Below are positions 6,343 to 43,090 of a stretch of DNA of 64,000 nucleotides, piece after piece. The stretch comes from Clostridia bacterium (GTDB lineage Bacteria; Bacillota; Clostridia; Lutisporales; Lutisporaceae). The position numbers and the translations under genes are program-made. The notes under the pieces were generated by a model, which had not been told where the DNA came from, did no database searches, and saw only the letters and a list, made by a program, of their open reading frames with translations. Every line of letters starts with the position of its first letter. Positions within the stretch are counted from its first letter, which is position 1. The stretch lies in assembly GCA_035628995.1 (NCBI GenBank), contig DASPIR010000023.1, positions 186,001-250,000 on the forward strand, written 5' to 3'.

Positions 6343-7512
6343 ATGAAAAAGAAAGCAATAGCATTATTACTAATTTGTTTGTTTGTTGTTTCAATTGGGT
6401 TAACAGGGTGTGGAAACAGTGCTCCAGCTGCAGCTGCTGCAGGAGACACTATCAAAGTAGGCTGGATGGGATCACTGACAGGTGACCAGGCCGTATGGGG
6501 ACAGTGCGAGTTAAATACAGTGAAAATGCTTTTTGAAGAAATCAATGCAAAAGGCGGAGTTCTTGGCAAAAATCTGGAAGTAATCGGATATGACACCAAA
6601 GGTGACCCACTGGAAGCAGTTAATGTTGCAAAAAGACTTACCGGGCAGGACAAAGTTGTAGCAATATTAGGACCAAACGCAAGTGGTAATGCTATACCGA
6701 TAGCACCTGTACTTGAACAGGCAAAGGTTGCAGATATAGCCACAGTTGCAACTAACCCTAAGGTTACGGTTATTGATGGAAAAGTAAAACCTTATAACTA
6801 CAGAGTATGTTTCATAGACCCATATCAAGGTGCAGTAGCTGCAGGTTACGCTATTGATGTTCTTAAAGCTAAGAATGCTGCAATTCTATATGACGTTGGA
6901 GACGATTATTCCCAGGGTCTTACACAGTTCTTTGAAGAGTATTTCGTAAAGAATGGCGGAAAAGTTGTAGTAAAAGAAGGCTTCAAGTCCGGAGACATTG
7001 ACTTCAGACCGCAGCTTTCAAAAATAAAGGCTGCAAATCCTGATGTTATATTCATGCCATATTTCTTTAAGGAAGTAGCATTGAGCTCCAACCAGGCAAG
7101 AGAGCTTGGAATAACTGCAACTCTTATGGGCGGCGATGGATGGCCTTCAGAACAGCTTCTAAGTATGGCTAAGGATGCTGTAAACGGTTCTTACTTCGTA
7201 AACCACTTGGATTATGACGACCCTGATGTTCAGGACTTCAAGACCAGATACAAGACTAAGTACAGCAAGGATGTTGAGCTTAACGGTTACCTAGTGCATG
7301 ATGCAGTTCTCATGCTTGAAGATGCTATAAAGAGCGCAGGGGAAGCGAACTCAGAAAAGATAGCTAAGGCGCTTGAGACTTCAGATATAAAGGGTATCAC
7401 AGGTAAGATAAAGATAGGCAAGGATACACACAACCCTGAAGGCAAAGACGCAGCTATCATAAAGATAGTTGATGGCAAGTACGTATTCCAGCAGAAGTTT
7501 GCTGCACAATAA
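6343..7512 (+). CDS. livJ: Branched-chain amino-acid ABC transporter, substrate-binding lipoprotein
   Basis: 389 residues. A lipoprotein signal peptide (KKK, hydrophobic stretch, 'LTGC' with Cys23 as the lipidated residue) is followed by a short Ala linker and a periplasmic-binding-protein type I fold ('IKVGWMGSLTGDQAVWG', 'GDPLEAVNVAKRL'). These are typical of LivJ/LivK. In this Gram-positive setting it would be anchored outside the membrane and deliver Leu/Ile/Val or a related amino acid to the permeases. The start has GAGGAGG 7 nt upstream. It heads livJHMGF and is separated from livH by a strong hairpin. Substrate within the family is not decided by sequence alone. Confidence 0.93.
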   Translation: MKKKAIALLLICLFVVSIGLTGCGNSAPAAAAAGDTIKVGWMGSLTGDQAVWGQCELNTVKMLFEEINAKGGVLGKNLEVIGYDTKGDPLEAVNVAKRLTGQDKVVAILGPNASGNAIPIAPVLEQAKVADIATVATNPKVTVIDGKVKPYNYRVCFIDPYQGAVAAGYAIDVLKAKNAAILYDVGDDYSQGLTQFFEEYFVKNGGKVVVKEGFKSGDIDFRPQLSKIKAANPDVIFMPYFFKEVALSSNQARELGITATLMGGDGWPSEQLLSMAKDAVNGSYFVNHLDYDDPDVQDFKTRYKTKYSKDVELNGYLVHDAVLMLEDAIKSAGEANSEKIAKALETSDIKGITGKIKIGKDTHNPEGKDAAIIKIVDGKYVFQQKFAAQ

Positions 7513-36496: not shown

Positions 36497-37315
36497 TTAT
36501 TTTTCAGCTTTAATATATGCTCCCGCATATGCACCATCTAGTAATTCCAAGACATCTCCAACCTCAATTTCAAGCAAATAATTTTTCTGCTGCAAAATTT
36601 CTAATATAACTTCCTTTGTATATACATGAACAGGTTTTATCTCAATGTGTTTAAAGCCAACCTTTTCAAGTATAGTTTTGTACTCATCGGTACTTAAAGC
36701 ACCCGCTATACAGCCTACCCAGAGTTCAGCCATATTTTTGATATCCTTCGGAACATCCTTTAGGACTATAATATCAGAAATTGCTAGTCTTCCGCCTTTC
36801 TTTATAACTCTATAAGCCTCAGACAAAGCTTTCTCCTTGTCATCAGACAGGTTTATTACACAATTGGAGATTACTGCATCTACTGTATATTCATCCAGTG
36901 GAATATCTTCAATATAGCCCTTGATGAACTCAACATTTTCCACTCCCATTCTCTTTTTATTCTTATTGGCTAATTCCAGCATTTCATCAGTCATATCCAG
37001 GCCATATATCTTACCCGTGCTGCCTACATATCTGGTTGCCAATAGAACATCTATCCCCCCGCCGCTTCCAAGGTCCAGTACAGTCTCTCCCTCTTTTAAC
37101 TGTGCAAGAAGCAGCGGATTTGCGCAACCTAAAGATGCATTTACAGCTTCTATCGGTAAATTCTCAAGATTTTCACCTTTATAAATGATTGAATCGTCAC
37201 TAATGCTGTTGCAGCAGGATGAACCTCCACAACAGCTGCTCTTTGATTCCCTATTAACCTTTTTTGCAATTCCTCCATAGTATGACTTCACTTTTTGCTT
37301 CACATCAGAATTCAT
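36497..37315 (-). CDS. arsM: Arsenite S-adenosylmethionine methyltransferase ArsM
   Basis: 272 residues. The SAM fold has 'VLDLGSGGGIDVLLA' (about 79-93). Arsenic-binding cysteines fit ArsM: 'CCGGSSCC' at 28-35, Cys64 in 'LGCANP', Cys152 in 'SNCVINLS', Cys202 in 'VGCIAGA'. It methylates As(III) to volatile or less retained species. ATG 37315 has AAAGGAG 9 nt upstream; an upstream in-frame start overlaps marR and has no RBS. It lies 14 bp after the Cys-rich MarR gene, its probable regulator, at the distal end of the arsenic island. Confidence 0.95.
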   Translation of the reverse strand: MNSDVKQKVKSYYGGIAKKVNRESKSSCCGGSSCCNSISDDSIIYKGENLENLPIEAVNASLGCANPLLLAQLKEGETVLDLGSGGGIDVLLATRYVGSTGKIYGLDMTDEMLELANKNKKRMGVENVEFIKGYIEDIPLDEYTVDAVISNCVINLSDDKEKALSEAYRVIKKGGRLAISDIIVLKDVPKDIKNMAELWVGCIAGALSTDEYKTILEKVGFKHIEIKPVHVYTKEVILEILQQKNYLLEIEVGDVLELLDGAYAGAYIKAEK

Positions 37316-37329
37316 TGTCTTACTCCTTT

Positions 37330-37773
37330 CTAACAACACTTATTATTTTTCATTGCATCAAGCAATAACGTAAGACTCTCAACTACCTGAGTATGCTTCT
37401 CTTCCGGAATATCCTTCAACAATGACATATAGTACATATCCATATTCTTTTCAATAGCTTTGTAAATACGCAGCCCCTTTTCAGTCAGCTTCAATTTCAC
37501 ATAACGTCTGTCTTCTGTATCGATTTCTCTCAGGACAAGCTGCTGCTCAACTAAATTATTAATGGTTCTGCTCATAGTGCTATTATCTAAATTCAATAAT
37601 TCAGCCAGTTCATTAAGTGAAATCTCTTGTGCTCTAGCAATCTCAGTTATTGCATAGCATTGTCCTATCGTAGTCCCACAGCAGGAAGCTTCAGCTTTAT
37701 CAAGGAAACTCATATTTCTGATCAGCTGTCTTGCAAGCTCTCGTAGTTCACTAATATAATCTTTTTTATCCAA
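37330..37773 (-). CDS. MarR-family regulator with cysteine clusters, probable metalloid sensor
   Basis: 147 residues starting at a TTG (RBS AGAGGTGG, 6 nt). The winged helix is plain: 'SLNELAELLNLDNSTMSRTINNLVEQQLVLREIDTEDRRYVKLKLTEKG' spans about 54-102. Unlike most MarR proteins it has Cys31-Cys32 and Cys39 in the first helices ('ASCCGTTIGQC') and ends in Cys146-Cys147. These could bind As(III) or Sb(III). It precedes arsM in one unit. A palindrome overlapping its -35 (37811-37823) is a fitting autoregulatory operator. Direct metalloid sensing is inferred. Confidence 0.85.
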   Translation of the reverse strand: MDKKDYISELRELARQLIRNMSFLDKAEASCCGTTIGQCYAITEIARAQEISLNELAELLNLDNSTMSRTINNLVEQQLVLREIDTEDRRYVKLKLTEKGLRIYKAIEKNMDMYYMSLLKDIPEEKHTQVVESLTLLLDAMKNNKCC

Positions 37774-37876: not shown

Positions 37877-38161
37877 CTATTCTAAAACCTCAAGTCTGAA
37901 TTTGCCATAACCTTCCACATAAAAATCAAGAAAATTTTCTTTTAATTCACTTTCCAAAACGTCTTTTGCAATATAAAAAGTAATATCGTTTATGGAAAAT
38001 GCTTCAAAGCACTCGGTGCTTTCAGGTATGCCCATCAATCCAGATGGTGCTTCATAAGCCACTCATCAGCCATGTATAGTGATTCTTATGGTTACATTCA
38101 TAGCGGCTCCCCTTTGCTTCACATAGTCATAAAGCCAAGGAGATACTGAGGCTTTTCGCAT
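37877..38161 (-). CDS. CC/Se-motif selenoprotein with two adjacent UGA codons (predicted Sec32-Sec33)
   Basis: Read through UGA, the frame runs 94 residues from ATG 38161 (AGGGGG, 8 nt upstream) to TAA at 37877. The order is a start region 'SVSPWLYDYVKQRG', a strand 'NVTIRITIHG', two consecutive TGA codons (38066-38068 and 38063-38065), 'VAYEAPSGLMGIPES', 'INDITFYIAKDVL' and 'YGKFRLEVLE'. This is the layout of the small clostridial CC/Se family, where a Cys-Cys or Cys/Sec pair follows a Gly. A conventional caller would start at the GTG at 38062 and report 61 residues. A hairpin 15 nt after the UGAs is SECIS-like. It lies 23 bp after the phosphoesterase in the arsenic island. Function unknown; metalloid or thiol chemistry is a guess. 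Confidence 0.72.
38032..38047 (-). promoter_or_regulatory. Candidate bacterial SECIS hairpin
   Basis: On the minus strand CCATC-TGGATT-GATGG, beginning 15 nt after the second UGA, with GG in the apical loop. This is the position and loop feature expected for SelB recognition. The stem is short (5 bp). Confidence 0.5.
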
Positions 38162-38184
38162 ACTTATGCCCCCTTATATAAGGA

Positions 38185-38898
38185 TTAAGCCTTTCCGGTT
38201 CTTATAATGTTTGCAAACTCATGCGGCAGTCCCATTTCTTCTATCGCTTTTGCAGTATTTTCGTATTCGTAATCCACTTCATATATTTCAACCTTTGCGT
38301 TCTCTCCAAATAAATCAAGTACCACATAGTTGGCCTTTGGAGTCCCTGTCTTTGGCTTGCCTGCACTGCCAGCATTCACAAGCATCTTATCACCGTACAT
38401 TTTGTAATATGGCTTATGTGTATGTCCGCAGACCAGTATATCGGCTTCAAAAGCACTCATTACCTCTTCGGCTTCAGTTGAATTCTCTTTGAGATATTCA
38501 TTTATCTTTCTTGGACTGCCATGAACGAACTTTATTGTCTTGACTTCAAAACTCATATCCACTTCCATTGGTAAGTTTCTCAAAAACTCTTTGTTATCTT
38601 CTCTCGTTTCGTCTATAGTCCAATTTAATGATAACCCTGCGTTTTCTGCATCCTTTTGATCAGGATAATCACAGCCGCAGACCATAAGCTCTTCTCCAAC
38701 TGCTTCATCGTAGTTTCCCTTAATTGTCAATATTCTGTTTTCACGGATAGTGTCTATAACCTCATTTGGATATGTTGCATAGCCCACCAGGTCACCCAAA
38801 CATAAAATTAAATCCACATTTTTATTGTCTATATCCAAGAGCACTTCGTTAAGGGCAAATATATTGCTGTGTATGTCCGCGATTACTGCTATTCTCAT
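38185..38898 (-). CDS. Calcineurin-like metallophosphoesterase
   Basis: 237 residues. Metal-binding motifs in order: 'ADIHSNIFAL' (D-x-H), 'LGDLVGY' (GD), 'IKGNYDE' (GN), 'FVHGSPR' and 'VCGHTHKP' (GHTH). This is the YfcE/MJ0936-like small phosphodiesterase group. It sits between acr3 (17 bp upstream) and the predicted selenoprotein, all co-directional, so it belongs to the arsenic operon. Why a phosphoesterase accompanies arsenite export is unknown; hydrolysis of arsenylated or phosphorylated by-products is one possibility. Confidence 0.92.
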   Translation of the reverse strand: MRIAVIADIHSNIFALNEVLLDIDNKNVDLILCLGDLVGYATYPNEVIDTIRENRILTIKGNYDEAVGEELMVCGCDYPDQKDAENAGLSLNWTIDETREDNKEFLRNLPMEVDMSFEVKTIKFVHGSPRKINEYLKENSTEAEEVMSAFEADILVCGHTHKPYYKMYGDKMLVNAGSAGKPKTGTPKANYVVLDLFGENAKVEIYEVDYEYENTAKAIEEMGLPHEFANIIRTGKA

Positions 38899-38915: not shown

Positions 38916-39983
38916 TTAATTCTCAGTAAACCAATGTTTAGTATTATTTGCTATCCTTACCAGTGCTAACATAACTGGAACTTCAACAAGAACACCCACA
39001 ACGGTAGCTAATGCTGCACCTGATTCAAGCCCGAAAAGCGAAATGGCGACTGCCACCGCAAGTTCAAAAAAATTGCTGGCACCTATCATTCCAGCTGGAG
39101 CTGCTATATCATGCTTAAGCTTCCACGCCCTTGCCCACCCGTAGGACAGGAAGAATATAAAGAATGTCTGTATTGTCAGCGGTACAGCTATGAGAGCTAT
39201 GTGAAGCGGATTGTTCAAGATAATTTTCCCTTGAAAAGAAAAAACTATAACCAATGTGAGCAGTAGGCCTATTACTGTGATATTATCAAACTTCTTTAAA
39301 AACACATTGTTGAAATAATCCAAGCCCTTGCCCTTTATTACATATTTCCTGGTAAAGTATCCCCCTGCAAGTGGAATAACAACGAACAGAATCGTTGCTA
39401 TAATCAATGTATCATAAGGTACTACTACCTTGCTCACTCCCAGAAGGAATGCAACTATAGGCGTAAATGCAACTAGTATTATTAAGTCGTTGACTGCTAC
39501 TTGCACCAAGGTGTAAGCCGGGTCTCCATTTGTAAGATGACTCCATACAAACACCATAGCGGTACAAGGAGCTGCGCCCAATAATACTGCTCCAGCCAGA
39601 TATTCCTTGGCTAAATCAGCAGGGATCAGATTCTTGAATACCACATAGAAGAAAAAAGAGGCAATTGCATACATTGTGAATGGTTTAATAAGCCAATTGG
39701 TAACACAAGTAACTATTAAGCCTTTGGGCTTTTTAGTTGCATTTACTATGCTTGAAAAGTCTATCTTAAGCATCATAGGATAAATCATCAGCCATATGAG
39801 TATTGCTACAGGTATTGATACATTGGCATATTCAAATTTACTAAGCGTTTGCGGTACTTTGGGAAGCATCTGGCCTAGAATAACCCCGGCTGCTATACAT
39901 ATTGCCACCCATACCGTAAGGTACTTTGCAAAGAAACCTAGTGCGTTATTATCACTATTTTTGTTATCTTTAGTATTGCGCAT
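38916..39983 (-). CDS. acr3: Arsenite efflux permease ACR3
   Basis: 355 residues, about ten membrane spans, ACR3 family rather than ArsB. It has 'LIWLMIYPMMLKIDFSSI', the essential Cys in 'LGAAPCTAMVFVWSHLTNGDPAYTL', and 'GMIGASNFFELAVAVAISLFG' near the C-terminus. It exports As(OH)3, probably energised by the ArsA ATPase encoded in the same run. RBS AGGGGAG. It lies after the rhodanese-like gene, 68 bp apart, and before the phosphoesterase. Confidence 0.96.
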   Translation of the reverse strand: MRNTKDNKNSDNNALGFFAKYLTVWVAICIAAGVILGQMLPKVPQTLSKFEYANVSIPVAILIWLMIYPMMLKIDFSSIVNATKKPKGLIVTCVTNWLIKPFTMYAIASFFFYVVFKNLIPADLAKEYLAGAVLLGAAPCTAMVFVWSHLTNGDPAYTLVQVAVNDLIILVAFTPIVAFLLGVSKVVVPYDTLIIATILFVVIPLAGGYFTRKYVIKGKGLDYFNNVFLKKFDNITVIGLLLTLVIVFSFQGKIILNNPLHIALIAVPLTIQTFFIFFLSYGWARAWKLKHDIAAPAGMIGASNFFELAVAVAISLFGLESGAALATVVGVLVEVPVMLALVRIANNTKHWFTEN

Positions 39984-40051: not shown

Positions 40052-40462
40052 CTATTTTGGTGAGACTGATGAGCCCTCCATTCGTATTTTTTGAGGCTGA
40101 AGTCTGCAGGCACAACCCCCTATCATCTCATAATCTAAGTCCTTGGCAAGTGGCAATCCAGCATGGTCCCATGCCACGACCCCTCCAGCAAGACATGCAA
40201 CCTCTGAATAACCATGTTCCACAAGGGATAGGGCAAATTCTTTGCTTTGATTACCAACACTATCTGCAACTATTAATAAATTATTCCTAGGTAAATTATC
40301 TATTATCTCGTTATTAGAGTCGCCAGAGAGATAAATTACTCTGGGAACATCAAATACGCGTAAATCAGTTTCATACGCAGGACGAATATCTACAATAATG
40401 GCACCGGCATTTATGTATTCAAATACTTCTCGTGGAGTAAATGAAACTATTTGAGGATTCAT
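40052..40462 (-). CDS. Rhodanese-like protein lacking the catalytic cysteine
   Basis: 136 residues. Rhodanese fold: 'SFTPREVFEYINAGAIIVDIRPAYE' and 'YSEVACLAGGVVAWDHAGLPLA'. The active-site loop reads 'IVADSVGNQSKEFA' where active enzymes have a Cys (pattern CxxGxRS), so sulfur transfer through the usual persulfide is unlikely. It keeps a Cys in 'VACLAGG' and a C-terminal 'GGCACRLQ' that could bind a metal or As(III). ATG 40462 is 7 nt from AGAGGT. It lies between arsA and acr3, separated from arsA by a strong hairpin. A binding or chaperone role is my inference. Confidence 0.8.
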   Translation of the reverse strand: MNPQIVSFTPREVFEYINAGAIIVDIRPAYETDLRVFDVPRVIYLSGDSNNEIIDNLPRNNLLIVADSVGNQSKEFALSLVEHGYSEVACLAGGVVAWDHAGLPLAKDLDYEMIGGCACRLQPQKIRMEGSSVSPK

Positions 40463-40508
40463 AATCATGACCTCTACCTTCATTAATTAAATTATTGTTA
40501 TATTGGAA

Positions 40509-40553: not shown

Positions 40554-42314
40554 TTATCTTATCAATTCGATGAGCTTCTCGCCCTTTACCTCTTCGGGCA
40601 TCCACTCTATCACTGCAAAATTACCCTTTGATATTTCATTCACTTTGTTAATCCACTGCACTTCATTACTTGCCTTTACTTTTAGAATAGCATTGGTTGT
40701 ATTAGCTGCGTAGAAGCTTGAATTAATGACCCACCACTTACTGTGGATGCCTGCTCTATTCAGGTCACTTTGCAATCTCAAAGCTTCATAGACCGGAGTA
40801 GTTTCTGCAAGTGTTACAATAATTACTTCTGCTTCCTCTTCGTTCTTTAATTTAGGTAAAAGCTTCTTAACTGACTCTGGAATATCTCCCTGAGAACGCT
40901 GAATTTCTTTATGATACCTTTGAGTAGAATCCAAGAGCAGCAATGTATGTCCAGTCGGCGCAGTATCAATAACTACAACTTCATTATCTGAGCTATCCAC
41001 TATTTCCGCAAAAGCTCTAAATACTGCAATTTCTTGGGTGCAAGGAGATCTTAAATCTTCTTCAACATAAGCCAGATCATCACCGCTCATTGTTTCTCTT
41101 GCTTTGCTTAATACTTCTTCCTTATACCTCTCAAGCTCTTCTTTTTCATCAATACTGCTCAAAGTTACACCATAACTTTCATCTAGTACAAACTTTAAAT
41201 GCGCTGCCGGGTCAGTCGTTGTCAAATGCACTTTTTTTCCCTTCTCAGCTAAACCTAGAGCAATGGCAGCAGCTATCGTAGTTTTGCCAACACCACCCTT
41301 ACCCATTGTGAATATTACTTTCTTACCGCTATTATATAAATCGTCAATTACAGTTTTTAGTTTAGGTATATTCTCTGTATTTAGTGTTTCATTGTTATAT
41401 TTTACGTTGTTATCCTTTAAAAAGGCTCTTATATTTTCCAAGCCTGTTATATTATATGGTCTTAGAGGTATTTTATAGGTTTCAATTAATTTGAGTGCTT
41501 CAGGCATATCATTCAATGCATTCTGCTGTTTTTCGTAAATAGCATCTGAAAGAAAGTCATCATGTATCTCAAGCACACCGTTAATAATTAAAACTTGATT
41601 ATTTACTCCTATATCCTGAAGCTCTTTAGATGCTCTTTCGGCTTCTTTCAGCGGTGATGGCTCAGGACGTGAAACAAGTATAAGGGTTGTTTTCTCTTCG
41701 TCAGCTAAATTGTCGACTGCGTTTTTATACACTTCCCTTTTGCTTTCAAGTCCTGAAAGCTGCCCAAGGCATGACGCGCCGTGTGTGTTTTCACTTATAA
41801 AATTGCTCCAGGCTGAAGGAAGCTGCAGCATTCTCAAGGTATGCCCTGTTGGTGCAGTATCAAATATAATATGGTTATACTCCGTTGCTGCTTTCTCATC
41901 CGTTATGAAGTTTGAGAATTCATTAAATGCAGCTATCTCAACTGTGCATGAACCAGAGAGCTGTTCCTCCATGTTTTTCAATACTGCATCCGGCAGTTTG
42001 CCGCGATAGGGTGCTATTACACCTTCCCTATACTCAGCAGCAGCCTCCACCGGATCAAAGTTTGCAACTGTTAAATTAGGAACTCCTTTTATGGGAACTC
42101 CCTTGTTATCCAGGGAGGTGTTAAAAACATCCTGAAGGTTGGACGCGGGATCGGTGCTGATCAGCATTATCTTCTTGCCTTTGTCAGCTAAGGCTACTGC
42201 CGTAGCACATGCTGCAGAGGTCTTGCCGACTCCTCCCTTCCCTGTAAAAAACAAATACTTTGTTAAGTTAAACTCTGATATATTATAATCTTTGATCAAT
42301 CCTTGATCCCTCAT
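40554..42314 (-). CDS. arsA: Arsenite-stimulated pump ATPase ArsA
   Basis: 586 residues with two homologous halves. Each half has a deviant Walker A ('FTGKGGVGKTSAACATA' near 20 and 'TMGKGGVGKTTIAAAIA' near 335) and the transduction motif 'DTAPTGHTLR/L'. Metal-site cysteines appear as 'GSCTVEIAAF' and 'SPCTQEIAVF', plus 'ASCLGQL'. This is full-length bacterial ArsA, which energises arsenite export through the membrane permease. It begins 9 bp after arsD with a poor RBS, so it is probably translationally coupled. Confidence 0.97.
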   Translation of the reverse strand: MRDQGLIKDYNISEFNLTKYLFFTGKGGVGKTSAACATAVALADKGKKIMLISTDPASNLQDVFNTSLDNKGVPIKGVPNLTVANFDPVEAAAEYREGVIAPYRGKLPDAVLKNMEEQLSGSCTVEIAAFNEFSNFITDEKAATEYNHIIFDTAPTGHTLRMLQLPSAWSNFISENTHGASCLGQLSGLESKREVYKNAVDNLADEEKTTLILVSRPEPSPLKEAERASKELQDIGVNNQVLIINGVLEIHDDFLSDAIYEKQQNALNDMPEALKLIETYKIPLRPYNITGLENIRAFLKDNNVKYNNETLNTENIPKLKTVIDDLYNSGKKVIFTMGKGGVGKTTIAAAIALGLAEKGKKVHLTTTDPAAHLKFVLDESYGVTLSSIDEKEELERYKEEVLSKARETMSGDDLAYVEEDLRSPCTQEIAVFRAFAEIVDSSDNEVVVIDTAPTGHTLLLLDSTQRYHKEIQRSQGDIPESVKKLLPKLKNEEEAEVIIVTLAETTPVYEALRLQSDLNRAGIHSKWWVINSSFYAANTTNAILKVKASNEVQWINKVNEISKGNFAVIEWMPEEVKGEKLIELIR

Positions 42315-42323
42315 TTCTTATTT

Positions 42324-42689
42324 TCAGCCACAACTGCTGCCACATCCCTTAGCTGTTCTTGCAACAGTACCCTTTAAGTATTTTTCAGTAACTCCTAAAA
42401 ACTTGCAAATCTCTTCATTAGTTGGATAAGCTTTGGTTTTAACCACAGTACCATCAACCATTGAGACTGGAAGTACTTCTATTCCATTATTAATTAGCAT
42501 TCTATTTATTTCTTTGCTATCAATAAAAATTTGTGGATTACTAGATAGGTTATACCTTTCAACTAGTATACCGTTGTTCTTAAGGTTGTTTATCACTGTT
42601 GAAATTCTCAACAACTCAGGGTCCACGGATGGTCCGCATACACCAGTAGAACAGCACATTGCTGGTTCGAATATTACCATTCTTTTCAT
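42324..42689 (-). CDS. arsD: Arsenic metallochaperone ArsD
   Basis: 121 residues beginning at ATG 42689 (RBS AAAGGAGGTG). Cys12, Cys13 and Cys18 ('AMCCSTGVC') are exactly at the metalloid-binding positions of ArsD. The thioredoxin-like fold follows. The C-terminus has 'GCGSSCG', a further Cys pair as in the E. coli plasmid protein. It passes As(III) to ArsA, which is encoded directly downstream. Upstream in-frame starts would overlap arsR and lack an RBS. Confidence 0.96.
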   Translation of the reverse strand: MKRMVIFEPAMCCSTGVCGPSVDPELLRISTVINNLKNNGILVERYNLSSNPQIFIDSKEINRMLINNGIEVLPVSMVDGTVVKTKAYPTNEEICKFLGVTEKYLKGTVARTAKGCGSSCG

Positions 42690-42702
42690 ATTTACACCTC
42701 CT

Positions 42703-43026
42703 TTACTTACACTCACATTTAGATTTATCTTTACAAATACATTCATCCGTATCTGTTATAAGATTCATAAGAAATAGAATAAGTTTATTGCAGTTGGAAC
42801 TATCTAGAGAATAATAACTCCAGAGGCCTTCTTTTCTGCATTCCACAATACCACAGTCCATTAACACCTTCATATGATGCGAAAGTGTTGGCTGCGTAAA
42901 ATCGAAATGCTCTAATATATTACAGGCACATCTTTCCCCACAGGATAAGATGTCTATTATTTTAAGCCTGTTGGGATCTGAAAAGGCTTTAATAATTTTT
43001 GCATTATCATCATAGTTCTGAATCAT
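42703..43026 (-). CDS. arsR: ArsR/SmtB arsenic-responsive repressor
   Basis: 107 residues from ATG 43026 (GAGGTG). The winged helix has 'FSDPNRLKIIDILSCGERCACNILEHFDFTQPTLSHHMKVLMDCGIVECRKEG'. The As(III) site is Cys33-x-Cys35 in the helix before the recognition helix (an 'ERCACNI' variant of ELCVCDL), with Cys29 as a likely third ligand. An extra Cys-rich tail ('CICKDKSKCECK') ends the protein. First gene of the main arsenic operon. A palindrome near the transcription start is the probable operator. Confidence 0.96.
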   Translation of the reverse strand: MIQNYDDNAKIIKAFSDPNRLKIIDILSCGERCACNILEHFDFTQPTLSHHMKVLMDCGIVECRKEGLWSYYSLDSSNCNKLILFLMNLITDTDECICKDKSKCECK

Positions 43027-43041
43027 TAAATCACCTCGTAC

Positions 43042-43090
43042 ATAGATATGCATCTATATATAATATACAACAAGATTAAAACAACGTCAA
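43042..43090 (-). promoter_or_regulatory. ars operon promoter and ArsR-type palindrome
   Basis: Minus strand TTGACG (43085-43090), 17-bp spacer, TATATT (43062-43067). The palindrome ATAGATATGCATCTAT (43042-43057) covers the expected start site. Confidence 0.65.

Follow-up and report, generated by a model that had tools for sequence, protein, structure and literature searches.

The window, a 64-kb stretch of a Clostridia bacterium contig (DASPIR010000023.1), contains an arsenic island encoded on the minus strand. The island includes genes for an arsR-family regulator (42703–43053; PF01022), arsD (42324–42746; PF06953), the arsenical pump-driving ATPase arsA (40554–42314; TIGR04291, above cut-off), a rhodanese-like protein (40052–40483; PF00581) and the arsenite efflux transporter acr3 (38916–39983; TIGR00832, above cut-off). 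These are followed by a gene for a YfcE-type calcineurin-like phosphoesterase (38185–38898), which lies directly upstream of a small gene with two consecutive in-frame UGA codons. Directly downstream of the small gene is that for a MarR-family regulator with a Cys-Cys motif (37330–37773), conserved in two relatives, and then the arsenite methyltransferase gene arsM (36497–37339; NF008823, above cut-off). An earlier note on this DNA had placed the small gene after acr3 and a phosphoesterase in an arsenic island; this is confirmed, and arsA, arsD, arsR and arsM are also near. The MarR-type regulator carries SCCGTT close to its N-terminus and a C-terminal CC. It adjoins the double-Sec gene at two other loci (L042 and L043) and may be a metalloid sensor.

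The double-Sec gene spans positions 37877 to 38161 of the minus strand (94 codons; the TAA stop is included in the coordinates). Its ATG, at 38161, is preceded at a distance of 7 nt by a Shine-Dalgarno sequence, AGGGGG (38169–38174, minus strand), that was read directly and has similar counterparts in relatives. The frame runs for 31 codons, meets TGA TGA (38063–38068, minus strand) and then stays open for 61 codons to TAA. The adjacent UGA codons correspond to Sec32-Sec33 of the predicted product. With the standard code, the only open reading frame listed is a 61-residue stub with a GTG start (37877–38062). The start, ribosome binding sequence, UGA pair, open frame and stub had all been described in the earlier note, and direct reading of the sequence bears the description out. 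A match to PF12890 (dihydro-orotase-like; 0.0018, below cut-off) was dismissed as chance, and an Rfam search of the 64-kb window returned tRNAs only.

We found 25 further copies of the gene, in several Bacillota families and in Synergistota, at identities down to approximately 30%. This gives 26 genes in total once a second copy in genome G150 is counted, and the adjacent in-frame UGA pair occupies the same columns in all of them. The carriers are distantly related anaerobes, and retention of both UGAs, with the frame on either side, in 25 other genes far exceeds what chance would give. Among the carriers are Fervidicola ferrireducens, Thermosediminibacter litoriperuensis, Thermovorax subterraneus, Alkaliphilus peptidifermentans, an Anaerosolibacter and three Synergistota. 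Within 196 related genomes, eight more genes with identities of 32 to 68% were recovered, each with two in-frame TGAs. When a wider sample of the phylum was searched with the CC/Se motif (seleno)protein model NF041239, most of the genes recovered had a single TGA or none; there was also a set with two, and translation showed these to be adjacent in every member. No double-Sec copies were detected in viral contigs (using a codon pattern) or in plasmids (using tblastn).

Conservation extends to either side of the pair. In an alignment of 20 proteins, the UGA pair and two prolines 3′ of it are invariant, and W9, Y13, G18 and G31, all 5′ of the pair, are at least 90% conserved. Furthermore, in each of 11 gene-to-gene comparisons, dN was lower than dS both before and after the UGAs. 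Hence, both parts of the frame are under purifying selection. Thus, an in-frame UGA flanked on either side by homologous sequence is kept in other species, as looked for in a selenoprotein gene. The earlier note had read the text before and after the UGAs as one domain, and had named two observations that would count against this: conservation that begins only after the pair, and a TGA created by sequencing error. The first is contradicted by the upstream residues and upstream dN values given above, and the second is ruled out by 25 independent TGA-TGA copies. The homologue alignment that it proposed at columns 32–33 has adjacent UGAs there in every double-Sec copy.

We also scanned a genome collection covering 84,980 species for a codon pattern in which each of the two columns could be TGA, TGC or TGT. 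There were 17 matches, of which 16 were true members; the other, in Psychrobacillus (L081), was a spurious chance match. Even with Cys codons permitted, all 16 members have TGA-TGA. This 84,980-species scan returned no Cys form within the double-Sec clade; its pattern demands other conserved residues and may miss a divergent form.

A predicted bacterial SECIS hairpin is located at positions 38030–38050 (minus strand), with the core CCAUC-UGGAUU-GAUGG at 38032–38047. The stem starts 15 nt past the second UGA and there is GG in the loop, as had been claimed. The apical loop is 20 nt after the second UGA and 23 nt after the first. On its own, the window hairpin is unexceptional (z = −0.62), and the evidence for a SECIS is comparative. 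Its core (−5.6 kcal/mol) is weaker than the −7.5 kcal/mol of the published model, and the folded 51-nt stretch reaches −11.1 kcal/mol. RNAalifold recovered the same stem unguided. Across 25 sequences, 91% of cells in the SECIS columns pair and three pairs change on both sides. The covariation score was reached by none of 500 shuffles, and the covariation was lost when the partner was displaced by one to three columns. The published bSECIS model has a loop of 3–9 nt, with G in the first two positions, 16–37 nt after the UGA (PMC13188914). All 25 sequences fall within these limits for both UGAs, a count that covers stem, loop and spacing and leaves aside the energy limit of the model (−7.5 kcal/mol); the SECIS check proposed in the earlier note thus turned out positive at each codon. 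When synonymous codons were randomised 300 times, with uniform codon use, the equivalent count averaged 6.4 and never exceeded 13. The hairpin is shifted by approximately 4 nt in the three Synergistota copies. In single-Sec relatives, the loop of the best hairpin is mostly 20 or 23 nt after the single UGA, compared with 20–24 nt in double-Sec genes. Hence, it seems that a single ancestral SECIS serves both codons.

The genome from which the window derives encodes the machinery for selenocysteine insertion. The selD, selA and selB genes are together on contig C21, which also carries tRNA-Sec (selC); selD was recognised from its sequence and not through a family search. All four genes sought are therefore present, and the objection that the genome might lack sel genes fails. 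The selD gene (G000:C21, about 84000–85110) has an in-frame UGA, in SGUAAKIGP, and appears itself to encode a selenoprotein. Every one of the 24 carrier genomes tested has selA. Among 193 relatives, selA is present in 44, and all nine carriers, the window's genome included, fall within those 44. By a hand calculation that ignores kinship, the probability of this coincidence is ~1e-6; for the four carriers that are not of the window's family, every sampled member of which has selA, it is ~2e-4. UGA is also an ordinary stop in this DNA, ending arsD and 8 of 64 long open reading frames. On this sequence evidence, we regard it as almost certain that both UGAs are read as selenocysteine.

AlphaFold predicts one compact domain that spans the pair (mean pLDDT 93), with strands at residues 20–30 and 34–43 flanking it. 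The top structural matches are all to IscA, SufA and their relatives, with moderate scores (Z of 5 to 6), and every aligned structure entry with Z above 5 is of the IscA/SufA/HesB type, which points to an IscA-like fold for the modelled protein. Profile searching against solved structures returned FabG/SDR proteins alone, which were taken as chance matches. As a lead from alignment by eye with IscA, the sequence position of the UGA pair presumably matches that of Cys35 and the adjacent residue. Compared with the IscA/SufA/HesB carriers, two Sec residues replace one Cys at the probable first ligand position, and the C-terminal Cys-Gly-Cys is missing. Thus, the three ligands of IscA (Cys35 and the C-terminal Cys-Gly-Cys) are not reproduced. 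In the alignment of 20, there is no conserved Cys outside the Sec-Sec columns. Hence, the Sec-Sec pair is the sole conserved chalcogen site.

The earlier note had assigned the protein the layout of the small CC/Se family. The relationship is real: with UGA translated as a residue, the full frame matches NF041239 with E = 2e-7 and 31 bits, and the stub alone scores 16.5 bits. Membership did not stand, as the window protein is below the curated cut-off of 40 bits and belongs to a separate clade; one double-Sec relative (G239) reaches 42.7 bits. A maximum-likelihood tree was built from 25 double-Sec proteins and 21 relatives with a single Sec or with Cys. A branch with 99/98 support separates the former from the latter (the tree is unrooted), and the window protein is not placed within the NF041239 clade. 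Proteins of the NF041239 family, first predicted in Moorella thermoacetica, resemble the double-Sec proteins in size, fold region and the place of the SECIS in the gene. They likewise have Gly-Gly before the pair, either Sec or Cys in its first column and a GxP motif ~13 residues later. Conversely, the family is listed with one Sec (CxxU; PMC13188914, Table 1), whereas Sec-Sec is invariant here. At the pair position, relatives have GG-Sec-Ala, GG-Sec-Cys, Cys-Sec or Cys-Cys, so Sec or Cys occupies the aligned columns in the Cys-Cys, Sec-Cys and Cys-Sec forms of the related family. Hence, the pair coincides with a recognised functional position. The window's own genome has a Cys-Cys CC/Se paralogue (L011; G000:C17:2837-3118), and the same gene in close relatives is Sec-Cys (GGGUC). 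A further relative (L104; G662:C1:740043-740270) has the order Cys-Sec (KRCUL); Sec may therefore occupy the second position alone.

Other selenoproteins are more distant. The HesB-like selenoprotein (TIGR01911) and IscA/HesB_Se (NF038090) models match weakly over the same region and share the general IscA/HesB type, as judged by family names. However, the scores are far below cut-off, and the published entry for the HesB-like family gives one Sec and a UxGP motif. Sec-containing ArsM proteins and ArsM fusions (NF041536, NF041537) are likewise selenoproteins tied to arsenic genes, and the fusions too carry more than one Sec. These are of the methyltransferase type, however, and their Sec residues are in separate listed motifs rather than adjacent. 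A 2026 inventory has 119 prokaryotic selenoprotein families, with NF041239 entered as having one Sec, and the Sec-Sec motif is absent from it (PMC13188914); a mention in the papers of Haft and co-workers is possible. Literature searches on tandem Sec and arsenic-linked Sec gave nothing relevant. The single-Sec or Cys relatives (NF041239) were already known. Nearly all selenoproteins have Cys homologues (PMC13188914), and one recent detection method, by its own statement, may not identify those that do not. The double-Sec family may have escaped notice because detection leans on such homologues.

Genes of the ars type adjoin the double-Sec gene at approximately 10 loci (the window, L042–L047, L049, L086 and L094). 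Nine other copies (L052–L058, L060 and the second G150 copy) are beside genes for ferredoxin and an aldehyde:ferredoxin oxidoreductase, without ars genes. This branch often also has genes for a ThiS/MoaD-like protein and an FeFe-hydrogenase-like protein. Neither ars nor oxidoreductase genes are directly beside L048, L050, L051, L059 and the Synergistota copies. Genome G150 has one copy in each setting. Its second copy (L114, G150:C35:150000-163000, about 6530–6800) has the same layout as L052; its neighbours encode a sodium-solute symporter-like protein, a ferredoxin and an aldehyde:ferredoxin oxidoreductase-like protein. Given the nine oxidoreductase-linked copies and the few with neither neighbour, arsenic is not the common denominator. 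The link to arsenic is real for one branch and is not the whole story. Accordingly, of the metalloid or redox role suggested in the earlier note, the metalloid part is backed by context in the ars branch only; the other branch sits with aldehyde:ferredoxin oxidoreductases. It is very probable that the two adjacent UGAs are always both Sec by way of a single SECIS, and that they form an obligate vicinal diselenol, of which no Cys form is known, that serves in the handling of arsenic and alongside aldehyde:ferredoxin oxidoreductases.

We infer the biochemical function. Our leading proposal, which we hold tentatively, is that an IscA/HesB-fold Sec-Sec protein binds metalloids or soft metals and hands them over. 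The protein would be a small selenoprotein in which both consecutive UGAs are read as Sec, a step with strong support at the sequence level. One SECIS hairpin ~20 nt downstream, with SelA, SelB, SelC and SelD, would direct both insertions, and the resulting pair would stand where the related CC/Se family has Cys-Cys or Sec-Cys. Tight binding of As(III) is a property of vicinal dithiols, and would be expected of a vicinal diselenol as well. The pair would thus bind a soft metalloid or metal, which in ars islands would be trivalent arsenic. Bound arsenic would be handed to proteins of export (Acr3, ArsA and ArsD) or methylation (ArsM), and the pair may cycle through a diselenide on oxidation. 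In the oxidoreductase branch, the same site would serve the aldehyde:ferredoxin oxidoreductase or its cofactor.

Metalloid binding has two close rivals, redox catalysis and the carriage of a cofactor. It is possible that the protein, again with both UGAs read as Sec, is a thiol/diselenide oxidoreductase, the pair cycling between diselenol and diselenide and passing electrons to or from partner proteins. Its substrates would involve arsenate or disulfide reduction in ars islands, and ferredoxin-linked partners in the oxidoreductase operons. Redox is thought to be the role of most selenoproteins (PMC13188914). The partners here differ by branch, yet most are redox or metalloid related: thioredoxin-like, rhodanese and DUF2703 proteins near some ars-linked copies, and ferredoxin and FeFe-hydrogenase-like proteins near others. 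However, there is neither a thioredoxin fold nor a conserved resolving Cys elsewhere in the protein. Adjacent residues would also form a strained ring when oxidised, which counts against such a catalyst. Rather less probable is an IscA-like carrier of Fe-S, tungsten or chalcogen, also with two Sec residues, that matures partner enzymes. The IscA/SufA/HesB fold, the weak NF038090 and TIGR01911 matches and the position of one branch beside an aldehyde:ferredoxin oxidoreductase and a ThiS/MoaD-like protein all favour this. Conversely, the C-terminal Cys-Gly-Cys ligands of IscA are lacking in all aligned members, and the ars-linked branch has no obvious specific Fe-S client.

Two readings deny the selenocysteine pair, and both are rejected. 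The first UGA might be Sec and the second a stop, or neither might be read, giving a short peptide or the 61-residue stub. The absence of tandem Sec from the published inventory (PMC13188914) is in line with this, but two-sided purifying selection, the single predicted fold, two TGAs that never vary and the presence of selA in every carrier make it very improbable. Reassignment of UGA to another amino acid, or a pseudogene, can be dismissed: no supporting evidence was found, UGA is an ordinary stop here, and the copies have no other frame defects and have dN below dS.

If both insertions occur, SelB and one hairpin would recode two codons in a row, which goes beyond the description of bacterial Sec insertion in PMC13188914. 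The double-Sec genes would then be a ready system in which to ask whether Sec insertion is processive, and would put a natural vicinal diselenol on offer for metalloid chemistry. They would also mark a blind spot in annotation; searches that use Cys homologues or a single UGA can miss them.

Some further neighbours of the double-Sec genes were noted. DUF2703 proteins are encoded nearby at L043 (8230–8823), L044 and L059 (within 4 kb). That at L043 has a sub-threshold match to the DF-family (seleno)protein model NF049942, and the DUF2703 proteins are possibly another selenium-linked arsenic protein. Class V aminotransferase-like proteins, of the cysteine desulfurase or selenocysteine lyase type, were seen by eye within 8 kb at L047, L053, L056 and L082. 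At L053, L054, L055 and L057, a ThiS/MoaD-like protein is encoded ~250 bp before the double-Sec gene, with GGC in place of GG at the end of the L057 copy.
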